Assembly (NCBI GenBank): GCA_003712055.1
Contig: RHLJ01000002.1
Span: 1 to 64,000 of the forward strand
From: Balneola sp.
GTDB lineage: Bacteria > Bacteroidota > Rhodothermia > Balneolales > Balneolaceae
Direction: 5' to 3'
Length of the DNA stretch: 64,000 nt
Positions within the stretch are counted from its first letter, which is position 1; every line of letters begins with the position of its first letter. Below are positions 6,033-11,357 of this stretch, piece after piece. The notes under the pieces were generated by a model. The model was not told the DNA's origin, made no database searches, and was given only the letters and a program-made list of their open reading frames with translations. Made by a program: the position numbers and the translations under genes.

Positions 6033-6836
6033 ATGTGTACCAATAATCATATTGCCATTTTGGGAGCGGGCAACTTAGGTGTTGCGGTGGCCAGAGGGCT
6101 CGCCAAAGAGCATGGTGAAGGCTGCATTATCCTTACCCGCCGACATACCTCAAAGCTTAACGAGTTAAAAGAGCAAGGTTTTGAGGTTACTTCAGATAAT
6201 ATACAGGCTGTAAAAAGTTCGAAGTATCTCATCCTATGCGTCCAGCCCAAACAGTTGGAGGGATTATTAAAGGAAATTGAGAGTGCTTTGGATCCGGCTC
6301 ATCATGTGTTGGTATCAACGATTACCGGAGTTTCGCTTGAGCTTATCCAATCCTATGTTGAAAATGAATTCCCTATCATCAGAACGATGCCTAATACCGC
6401 AGCAGCCATTGCGGAGTCGATGACATGTATTTGTGCGAATGAACCTGGTGATGAACACCTTGAGGTTATTGAATCCATGTTTAAGTCATTAGGTGAAACG
6501 CTTATTATTGAAGAACGATTGATGAAAGCTGCTACGGTATTGGCAGCCAGTGGAATTGCTTTCTTTTTGAGATATATCCGAGCTGCAACTCAGGGAGGAA
6601 TAGAATTGGGTTTTGAAGCTGAAGAGGCTCAAAAACTGGCAATGCAAACAGCACGAGGAGCAGCTTCATTACTAGTAGAGGGAAGCGCTCACCCTGAGAG
6701 AGAAATCGATAAAGTTACAACTCCACAAGGGTGCACCATTGCGGGGTTAAATGAAATGGAACACCAGGGACTAAGCTCAGCCCTTATTAAAGGTATCGTG
6801 GCTTCTTTCGAAAAAATAAATAGAATTACAGAATGA
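6033..6836 (+). CDS. proC: Pyrroline-5-carboxylate reductase
   Basis: Reduces pyrroline-5-carboxylate to proline with NAD(P)H. The 267-residue protein has the N-terminal dinucleotide loop AILGAGNLGVAVARGL and the ProC C-terminal helical region with VTTPQGCTIAGLNEME, a variant of the PROSITE P5CR signature. It sits 2 bases after argC. A proline gene in an arginine operon fits shared glutamate-derived semialdehyde chemistry; an alternative would be a reductase acting on an arginine intermediate, but the family match is plain. Its operon neighbour downstream is interrupted by the DUF559 unit. Confidence 0.93.
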   Translation: MCTNNHIAILGAGNLGVAVARGLAKEHGEGCIILTRRHTSKLNELKEQGFEVTSDNIQAVKSSKYLILCVQPKQLEGLLKEIESALDPAHHVLVSTITGVSLELIQSYVENEFPIIRTMPNTAAAIAESMTCICANEPGDEHLEVIESMFKSLGETLIIEERLMKAATVLAASGIAFFLRYIRAATQGGIELGFEAEEAQKLAMQTARGAASLLVEGSAHPEREIDKVTTPQGCTIAGLNEMEHQGLSSALIKGIVASFEKINRITE

Positions 6837-6894
6837 AATATCAGCAACTCAAAATTTTGATACATACACAGTTATACATATTTGAGCAAGATAA

Positions 6895-6928
6895 ATTCCT
6901 CTCCTGGGAGGGGATTAAGGGGTGGGTC
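6895..6928 (+). repeat. Left inverted repeat of the DUF559 unit
   Basis: A 34-base element with its own short hairpin (CCTCTCC-TG-GGAGGGG) followed by ATTAAGGGGTGGGTC. A matching copy lies inverted at 7298-7331 on the other side of the DUF559 gene, and a solo copy in the same orientation lies at 11284-11316. The G-rich right half sits just before the DUF559 ATG and can act as its ribosome-binding site. Confidence 0.8.
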
Positions 6929-6933
6929 AAAAA

Positions 6934-7368
6934 ATGACCAGGAAACCAGACATAATTCCATATAAAAAAGGGTTGGTCAAAAAGGCGCGACATCTAAGAA
7001 AGAACTCGACTCCCGGAGAAATAGAATTGTGGGTGGGCTTAAAAGGAAAACAAATTCTTGGGTTTGATTTTGACAGGCAAAAACCTATTCACACCTACAT
7101 TGTTGATTTTTTTTGTAAGGAATTAAGACTTGCAATCGAAATTGATGGAGACAGTCATAGCTTTAAAATTGAGTATGATAACAAACGCGAACAAGTCTTA
7201 AATGACCTTGGAGTCAATATTCTGAGATTTTCAGAAACAGATGCTAAGAATAGTACAGATCATTGTTTGCTTGAGATCCAAAATTGGATTAAAAGAAACC
7301 CACCCCTGTCCCCTCCCATGGAGGGGAACTCTTATACTATAAAAGGGACAACGAAAAGATTCTATTGA
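6934..7368 (+). CDS. DUF559 (Vsr-like) endonuclease-fold protein
   Basis: A 144-residue protein of the DUF559 family, related to Vsr and other PD-(D/E)XK nucleases. The core shows IVDFF (Asp58), then AIEIDGDSH with Glu69 and Asp71 as the second acidic pair, and a late NILRFSETD strand. I start it at the ATG at 6934, which gives the usual family opening MTRKPDIIPY; a GTG at 6922 lies inside the repeat. AAGGGG at 6917-6922 supplies a possible ribosome-binding site. The reading frame runs through the right-hand inverted repeat, so the C-terminal residues NPPLSPPMEGN are repeat-encoded. It sits between proC and argD, 9 bases before argD, with no known role in arginine synthesis. Confidence 0.85.
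   Translation: MTRKPDIIPYKKGLVKKARHLRKNSTPGEIELWVGLKGKQILGFDFDRQKPIHTYIVDFFCKELRLAIEIDGDSHSFKIEYDNKREQVLNDLGVNILRFSETDAKNSTDHCLLEIQNWIKRNPPLSPPMEGNSYTIKGTTKRFY
7298..7331 (-). repeat. Right inverted repeat of the DUF559 unit
   Basis: Read on the minus strand, this matches the left copy nearly base for base (the core CCATGGGAGGGGA, then CAGGGGTGGGT), with a 2-base deletion and a 1-base insertion. It lies inside the 3' end of the DUF559 gene and contributes about 11 codons. Confidence 0.8.
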
Positions 7369-7377
7369 AATAAACGA

Positions 7378-8505
7378 ATGAAATTATTTGATGTTTATCC
7401 TCTATTTGATGTAGAACCGGTTGAGGCAGATGGCTGCCTGGTATTTGATCGCCAACACAATGCATACCTGGATTTTTATGGTGGTCATGCTGTGATTTCA
7501 ATTGGCCACGGGCACCCTCATTATGTAGAAAGGATCTCCAAACAACTGGGAAAGCTTGGGTTTTATTCAAATTCTGTTCCTATTGCAGTACAAAAGGAAC
7601 TCGCTTACAAACTTGGGCAAGCATCAGGTTATGCAAACTGGAATTTGTTCCTGGTAAACTCAGGGGCTGAGGCGATAGAAAATGCTTTTAAAGTAGCTTC
7701 GGCTTTTAACCAACGTAAGAAAATTCTTGCTTTCGATGGAGCCTTTCATGGAAGAACATCATTGGCTGTTGCTGCTACCGATAACCCGAACATTCTATTC
7801 CCGGTTAATGAAGGAGCAGAAGTTACCAGGTTATCTTTCGAAGATTTTGAAGCAACAGAAACGGCACTAACTCAGGGAGATTATTGCTGTGTGATTATTG
7901 AAGGCATCCAGGGAGTAGGTGGCATTGTTGAGCCCAGCGCTGAATTTCTGAAGCATCTCCGAACTATTTGCGACAACACAAATACAGTACTTATCCTCGA
8001 CGAAGTACAATCAGGGTTTGGTAGAACAGGTAGGTTCTTTGCTCATCAACATGCTTTTGTTCAGCCTGATGTAATTACCATGGCGAAAGGAATGGGTAAT
8101 GGGTTTCCGGTAGGGGGGATATTAATCGACCCAAAATTTGAATCTAAATACGGTATGTTGGGGACTACTTTTGGAGGTAACCATTTGGCATGCGCGGCTA
8201 CTATTGCAGTTCTTGAAGTGTTAGAAAATGAGAAACTGATTCAGAATGCTCGTGAAGTTGGAGAGTATCTTATTCAGCAATTGTCGCATATCACACAAAT
8301 TAAAGAAATTAGAGGACGTGGATTAATGATTGGGATTGAATTTGATGCTCCTGTTGCAGAAATGAGGAAGAGGCTTTTGTATGAGCAAAGAATATTTACA
8401 GGATCATCTTCTAATAAAAATACCATCCGTTTGCTTCCCCCATTAAACATCTCTACTAAAGAAGCGGACACCTTTATTGAAAGCCTGAAGGAGGTACTGA
8501 AGTGA
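7378..8505 (+). CDS. argD: Acylornithine aminotransferase
   Basis: PLP-dependent transfer of an amino group from glutamate to the acylglutamate semialdehyde, giving N-acylornithine. The 375-residue class III aminotransferase shows NSGAEAIENAFKVA, the cofactor-binding FHGRTS, ILDEVQSGFGRTG and the PLP lysine in TMAKGMGNGFPVGG near residue 240. The end overlaps argF' by 4 bases (GTGA). The insertion of the DUF559 gene is directly upstream, so argD may depend on read-through across that unit. Confidence 0.94.
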   Translation: MKLFDVYPLFDVEPVEADGCLVFDRQHNAYLDFYGGHAVISIGHGHPHYVERISKQLGKLGFYSNSVPIAVQKELAYKLGQASGYANWNLFLVNSGAEAIENAFKVASAFNQRKKILAFDGAFHGRTSLAVAATDNPNILFPVNEGAEVTRLSFEDFEATETALTQGDYCCVIIEGIQGVGGIVEPSAEFLKHLRTICDNTNTVLILDEVQSGFGRTGRFFAHQHAFVQPDVITMAKGMGNGFPVGGILIDPKFESKYGMLGTTFGGNHLACAATIAVLEVLENEKLIQNAREVGEYLIQQLSHITQIKEIRGRGLMIGIEFDAPVAEMRKRLLYEQRIFTGSSSNKNTIRLLPPLNISTKEADTFIESLKEVLK

Positions 8506-11274: not shown

Positions 11275-11283
11275 AATTGGAAA

Positions 11284-11316
11284 GTCCCCTCTTGGGAGGG
11301 GATTTAGGGGTGGGTC
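11284..11316 (+). repeat. Solo copy of the DUF559-associated repeat
   Basis: Same orientation and nearly the same sequence as 6895-6928: CCCCTCTTGGGAGGGGATTT, then AGGGGTGGGTC. It lies between argE and argH without an accompanying nuclease gene. Confidence 0.8.
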
Positions 11317-11319
11317 TTG

Positions 11320-11350
11320 TAGATTCTTCGCTCCGCTCAGAATGACAATT
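11320..11350 (+). repeat. Half-copy of the dispersed AATGACA repeat
   Basis: AGATTCTTCGCTCCGCTCAG followed by AATGACAATT abuts the solo DUF559-type repeat and ends 8 bases before argH. It matches the closing half of the element at 39395-39485. The whole argE-argH gap is therefore made of repeats. Confidence 0.65.
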
Positions 11351-11357
11351 AAGAGTT

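Follow-up and report, generated by a model that had tools for sequence, protein, structure and literature searches.

Background

RAYT-REP systems are the described arrangement that comes closest to the locus analysed here. In these systems the gene of a nuclease, the RAYT, is flanked by inverted copies of its own repeat family, other members of which are dispersed over the genome as solo palindromes and divergent doublets. The palindromes carry a tail on one side only, repeat and nuclease vary together, and there are signs of insertion without an IS-like body. The system described in this study has each of these features, but its enzyme is a nuclease of the DUF559 Vsr/EDxHD type and not a Y1 (HUH) tyrosine enzyme such as RAYT. 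DUF559 is a widespread protein family whose role is largely obscure.

Three further systems are relevant for comparison. MITEs are, like the repeats described below, short non-autonomous elements with inverted arms. Among the EDxHD homing endonucleases, I-Bth0305I forms a dimer on a very long target site (PMC3943268), and PMC9403480 already places a DUF559 gene of Thermosynechococcus in this family. Caulobacter VsrA has the Vsr fold and is itself a DUF559 protein; it has been linked to cytosine methylation and mismatch repair and triggers DNA damage once a cytosine methylase is lost (PMC12907096). A pairing of DUF559 with REP-like repeats was not found described in the open-access literature that our search covered.

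Results and discussion

A DUF559 gene between inverted repeats in an arginine operon

The window, a stretch of 64,000 nucleotides from Balneola sp. (contig RHLJ01000002.1), contains an arginine operon in which proC (6033-6836) is followed by a DUF559 gene and then by argD (7378-8505). The DUF559 gene (6934-7368, forward strand) starts with an ATG at 6934, has its stop codon at 7368, and encodes a Vsr/EDxHD-type nuclease of 144 amino acids that matches the Pfam DUF559 profile (PF04480) with an E-value of 1.7e-28. It is bracketed by two REP-like arms. The left arm, of the alpha type (6896-6927, forward strand; TTCCTCTCC-TGGGAGGGGATTAAGGGGTGGGT), consists of the hairpin CCTCTCC/GGAGGGG, the linker ATTAA and the tail GGGGTGGGT, which faces the gene. 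The right arm, of the beta type (7298-7333, reverse strand; reverse complement AAGAGTTCCCCTCCATGGGAGGGGACAGGGGTGGGT), is inverted, so that its tail also faces the gene, and overlaps the coding sequence.

A previous reading of the window from its sequence only had described a DUF559 nuclease gene between inverted hairpin repeats in the arginine operon, and this observation is confirmed by the open reading frame, the Pfam match and the copies of the arms. It had also regarded the arms as two inverted copies of a 34-base repeat that form the bounds of the element. They are indeed inverted copies over about 32 bases, two short indels apart, but they belong to different types, alpha (GGAGGGGATTAAGGGGTGGGT) and beta (GGAGGGGACAGGGGTGGGT), and the inserted unit extends beyond them. 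That the right copy encodes the C-terminal residues NPPLSPPMEGN is borne out by the reading frame, which passes through the arm and continues for about 12 codons beyond it; the last 23 or so residues of the protein have low confidence in the structure model. The proposal that the left copy provides a G-rich site before the ATG holds for the close subclade, in which a few bases separate the tail from the start codon and the tail may represent a putative ribosome-binding site, but in several other clades the tail is located 30-60 bases away. As isolated DNA the left hairpin is weak (-2.9 kcal/mol, z 0 versus shuffles); since it folds no better than shuffled sequence, none of our claims is based on the fold of an isolated window arm.

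No cytosine methylase adjoins the DUF559 gene, its neighbours being proC and argD, and its reading frame is free-standing. Rfam gave no match at 6800-7450, and no intron was found around the gene. PADLOC returned weak domain-level matches only and no defence system, and the only NCBIfam match was PRK09767, below the cut-off.

A family of solo arms and divergent doublets

The arm pattern GGAGGGGN{1,6}GGGGTGGGT is matched exactly at 37 places in the genome, compared with none for the reversed pattern used as a control, and the window arms are thus not a product of chance. Hairpins near gene ends are common, and one might take the arms for GC-rich hairpins of the terminator type that border a gene by chance; this explanation is refuted by 37 near-identical copies versus 0 in the control and by the controls with mismatched flanks and ordinary genes given below, and has virtually nothing left to recommend it. 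Most of the matches are halves of REPIN-like divergent doublets of about 115 bp, which combine one beta and one alpha arm with their tails pointing outward and a spacer of about 30 bases. The predicted fold of a complete doublet is strong (z -4.7) and has paired tails and two inner hairpins. Only one convergent pair of the pattern exists in the genome, and this is the pair that brackets the window DUF559 gene.

Single arms characterize a separate group (L013, L017, L024, L025, L032, L034), and the window itself contains one solo arm of this related type (11281-11315, forward strand; AAAGTCCCCTCTTGGGAGGGGATTTAGGGGTGGGT). Directly after this solo arm (window positions 11314-11355, approximately) lies TTGTAGATTCTTCGCTCCGCTCAGAATGAC, another dispersed repeat, which is found again elsewhere in G040. 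The repeat of the gene L002 has exact copies in this genome only at L002 itself, which counts against the repeat-and-nuclease system favoured below.

The unit as an insertion

Most relatives in which proC was located upstream of argD show a four-base overlap (ATGA) of these genes; in the present genome about 540 bp lie between them. The additional DNA is a unit of 545 bp, with the DUF559 gene as its sole long open reading frame, and it reaches beyond the arms by about 56 bp on the left (6840-6895, forward strand; absent from relatives) and about 42 bp on the right (7334-7375, forward strand). The edges of the insertion are two copies of the 9-bp direct repeat GAATGAAAT on the forward strand, the left one (6831-6839) overlapping the proC stop and the right one (7376-7384) overlapping the argD start, and relatives have one copy at the junction. 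Coding of proC and argD forces 4-7 bases of GAATGAAAT per edge; because about 5 bases are free, we estimate the chance identity of the two copies at approximately 1 in 1000. The repeat is likely a target duplication. The left outer segment could perhaps be a decayed doublet spacer, and the right outer segment, which, joined to the final bases of the beta arm, reads AACTCTT...ACAACGAA, seems to resemble the spacer of complete doublets.

Empty-site counterparts, which the sequence-only reading had suggested looking for in the case of solo copies, exist for gene units and for one solo doublet. In addition to the proC-argD junction, G006 and G033 carry a related unit (L153, L158) at the junction of deoC with an aldehyde dehydrogenase gene, a junction that has short gaps in this genome, G039, G040 and G036. 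A solo doublet located at the bioD-bioA junction is missing from all 16 relatives in which this junction was readable. No clean empty site was found among relatives for the solo arm near 11295, as they differ in the gap and some contain other repeats there. Homing endonucleases cut a gene-free allele, which then acquires the gene through repair; gene-free sites exist here at the proC-argD and deoC-aldehyde dehydrogenase junctions. The 9-bp direct repeat at the edges of the window insertion is a difference from RAYT-REP systems. MITEs and DDE insertion sequences differ in other ways: no DDE parent was found within the 545-bp unit, the linked nuclease has another fold, and the window arms are internal to the unit and do not form terminal inverted repeats.

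Flanks of DUF559 genes in the Balneolales and other phyla

DUF559 is present in 74 of 129 genomes of the order Balneolales. Our survey comprised 103 small DUF559 genes with flanks, the best by E-value, of which 101 were usable; they are not independent, as they include 53 syntenic pairs. Inverted flanks with a score of at least 20 were found for 58% of the 101 genes and for 6% of mismatched flanks (53.5% versus 5% in an earlier run, with 0.2% for shuffles), and direct flanks with a score of at least 40 for 50% versus 1%. One or the other type was present at a score of 20 in 81% of the surveyed genes. Among ordinary genes of the window, 1 of 36 had inverted and 0 of 36 had long direct flanks, and inverted flanks were absent from all 30 argD orthologues. 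Matched flanking repeats were thus found at DUF559 copies in relatives, and an equal frequency beside unrelated genes, which the sequence-only reading had named as an outcome that would speak against it, did not appear. The other such outcome, DUF559 genes of relatives without these flanks, is not general, but about 19% of the surveyed genes have neither type clearly. Starting from the repeats, all 15 of 15 convergent pairs with a distance of about 390-480 bp contain DUF559 among the matches listed; in a few genomes arms are present and no DUF559 was detected.

The direct flanking repeats often extend over 150-300 bp and have complete doublets inside, and many genes thus show the organization doublet-gene-doublet. 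About half of the DUF559 genes are located between long direct repeats, compared with 26% of the RAYT genes analysed here. Long direct repeats and DUF559 remnants, which adjoin repeats at several loci, together with repeat-rich intergenic sites such as that near 11295, would fit an origin of the flanks by nothing but homologous recombination and tandem duplication around a GC-rich hotspot, in which the nuclease plays no part. Such a process gives no reason to expect that unrelated sites carry clade-specific repeats, and long direct flanks were found in 0 of 36 ordinary window genes; we thus consider it quite improbable.

Among 78 loci from many phyla, 55% were positive in the inverted test versus 13% of mismatched flanks, a higher background that is probably due to a shared GC-rich consensus, and the architecture was found in more than a dozen phyla. 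The DUF559 copy on the cyanobacterial plasmid pAQ6 has a direct flank. For an E. coli DUF559 gene (L359, NZ_OL790696.1) no convincing flanks were found (inverted score 21 in a gappy alignment, direct score 12), and the association between DUF559 and repeats is therefore not universal. The protein encoded by this gene ends in RRSPSP; the gene is perhaps a unit that lost its repeats.

Two arrangements with more than one DUF559 gene were also observed. At L358, paralogues at 315-752 and 2053-2511 are located on either side of an ABC-permease-like gene, each between convergent arms, and the pair is possibly a composite unit. In G017:C1, a distance of about 3.2 kb separates two DUF559 genes (L102, L103) whose domain sequences are identical. 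A close relative is also present in Gracilimonas amylolytica (L238).

Repeat sequence and nuclease phylogeny

Related DUF559 proteins at different genomic sites share repeats, and distant ones do not. Among non-syntenic pairs with a distance below 0.5 on the DUF559 tree, 83% had a repeat similarity of at least 25; among those with a distance above 1.5 this was the case for about 1%, and the observed agreement between repeats and tree was not reached in any of 300 permutations. By eye, stems change on both sides between clades (for example CCCCTCC/GGAGGGG, CCCCGC/GCGGGG, CCTCTCC/GGAGAGG), and the tails include GGGGTGGG, GGGGTGTG, GAGGTC, GGGGGATG and similar sequences. One clade (L088, L098, L120, L130, L137, L150) has a longer repeat that consists of a hairpin, a variable second hairpin and a AGGGAGAGGAC-like tail. 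Joint insertion and clade-matched repeats at differing sites support the proposal of the sequence-only reading that nuclease and repeats form one unit.

The agreement between repeat sequence and DUF559 tree also bears on the role of RAYT. The repeats could be ordinary REPs moved by a RAYT, with DUF559 as a passenger: RAYT genes are common in the same genomes, and the counts of three repeat patterns, which co-occur with DUF559 at the genome level (Fisher 2e-8, 7e-8 and 4e-4), do so about as strongly with RAYT. Because RAYT and DUF559 occur together, counts at the genome level cannot separate the two systems, and as co-occurrence is about equally significant for RAYT we do not use it as proof. 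However, each of the three RAYT-like genes in this genome is located between its own palindromes, which are unrelated to the DUF559 arms, and G050 contains DUF559 and 8 GGGGTGTG arms with no RAYT match. In the positive control of 40 RAYT loci (39 usable), inverted flanks with a score of at least 20 were found in 69% (null 5%) and direct flanks with a score of at least 40 in 26%, and their sequences differ from those of the DUF559 repeats; across the order, many RAYT flanks are GTCCCGTAGGGAC with GGTAG-like tails. The DUF559 tails are GGGGTGGG-like and, in contrast to REPs, have no GTAG/CGTC-type tag. Since the repeat sequence tracks the DUF559 tree, DUF559 is quite unlikely to be a mere passenger. 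The likeness to REP and RAYT with a PD-(D/E)XK-type nuclease as the enzyme, as the sequence-only reading had put it, is supported by this control, which shows the same architecture with other repeats.

The enzyme

A profile built from 47 DUF559 sequences matched the Neisseria DUF559 structure 3hrl (E 1e-32), I-Bth0305I (3r3p; E 2.3e-7) and PvuRts1I (E 2e-4). A structure model of the window protein (pLDDT 86) aligned with 3hrl (Z 15.2), I-Bth0305I (Z 11.9) and Vsr (Z 8.8). Residues R22, T26, E29, W33, Q49, D58, F59, E69, G72, H75, D82 and R98 are invariant in the 47 sequences, and the restriction-like core typical of the EDxHD/Vsr-like fold, with conserved histidine and acidic residues, is present. 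Profile matches and the predicted fold identify the product of the window gene as a nuclease of the EDxHD/Vsr type. It is related to I-Bth0305I, a homing endonuclease whose catalytic domain is homologous both in sequence and in fold. In contrast to I-Bth0305I, the window gene is found with no intron and no separate DNA-binding domain, and its flanks are many-copy repeats. NG86 dN/dS values of about 0.03-0.19 for orthologue pairs with usable synonymous distances, together with the invariant active site, demonstrate purifying selection on the nuclease.

The Vsr-type fold, purifying selection and the DNA damage triggered by Caulobacter VsrA on loss of a cytosine methylase (PMC12907096) would also fit a Vsr-like repair or regulatory nuclease that acts at the repeats for the host, the repeats spreading passively by recombination and the gene being kept for another function. 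We regard this explanation as unlikely, as gene units carrying their own repeats occur at differing sites with empty counterparts. The window gene further differs from Vsr and VsrA in its linkage to repeats and in having no linked cytosine methylase. By comparison, the Vsr-like gene L004 of this genome (G000:C2:491762-494890) adjoins a cytosine-5 methylase gene, has no REP-like flanks, and is probably a real restriction-modification Vsr.

A putative mechanism of mobility

The interpretation that we favour, and hold to be rather probable on the basis of sequence and comparative analysis, is that of a repeat-and-nuclease system working like REP and RAYT, in which the DUF559 Vsr/EDxHD nuclease would recognise and cut its own arm and repair would copy the doublet or the gene; the idea of such a system put forward in the sequence-only reading is supported, and the doublets, long direct repeats and possible target duplication go beyond what that reading contained. 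We infer that the arm, perhaps presented as a folded doublet, is recognised by its cognate nuclease and then nicked or cleaved. Repair might then copy the doublet alone, giving rise to solo elements, or alternatively the gene with its flanks, either into new places or into resident doublets. The organization doublet-gene-doublet could result from offset cuts on two inverted arms, or from recombination of a gene-doublet circle with a resident doublet by one crossover. The 9-bp repeat in the window would be the target duplication left by staggered cutting of a site that had no doublet.

Conclusions

Whether this extends to the family as a whole is evenly balanced in our view: DUF559 proteins may be the mobilising nucleases of a second, independent REP-like class in more than a dozen phyla, which in a homing-like manner would cut the cognate repeat and thereby spread non-autonomous hairpin doublets as well as their own gene. 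If this is true, an enzyme could be assigned to a large number of so far unexplained repeats in different phyla, and mobility of the REP type would have at least two evolutionary origins, based on unrelated nucleases. The PP-rich C-terminal tails of many DUF559 proteins would then be translated repeats.
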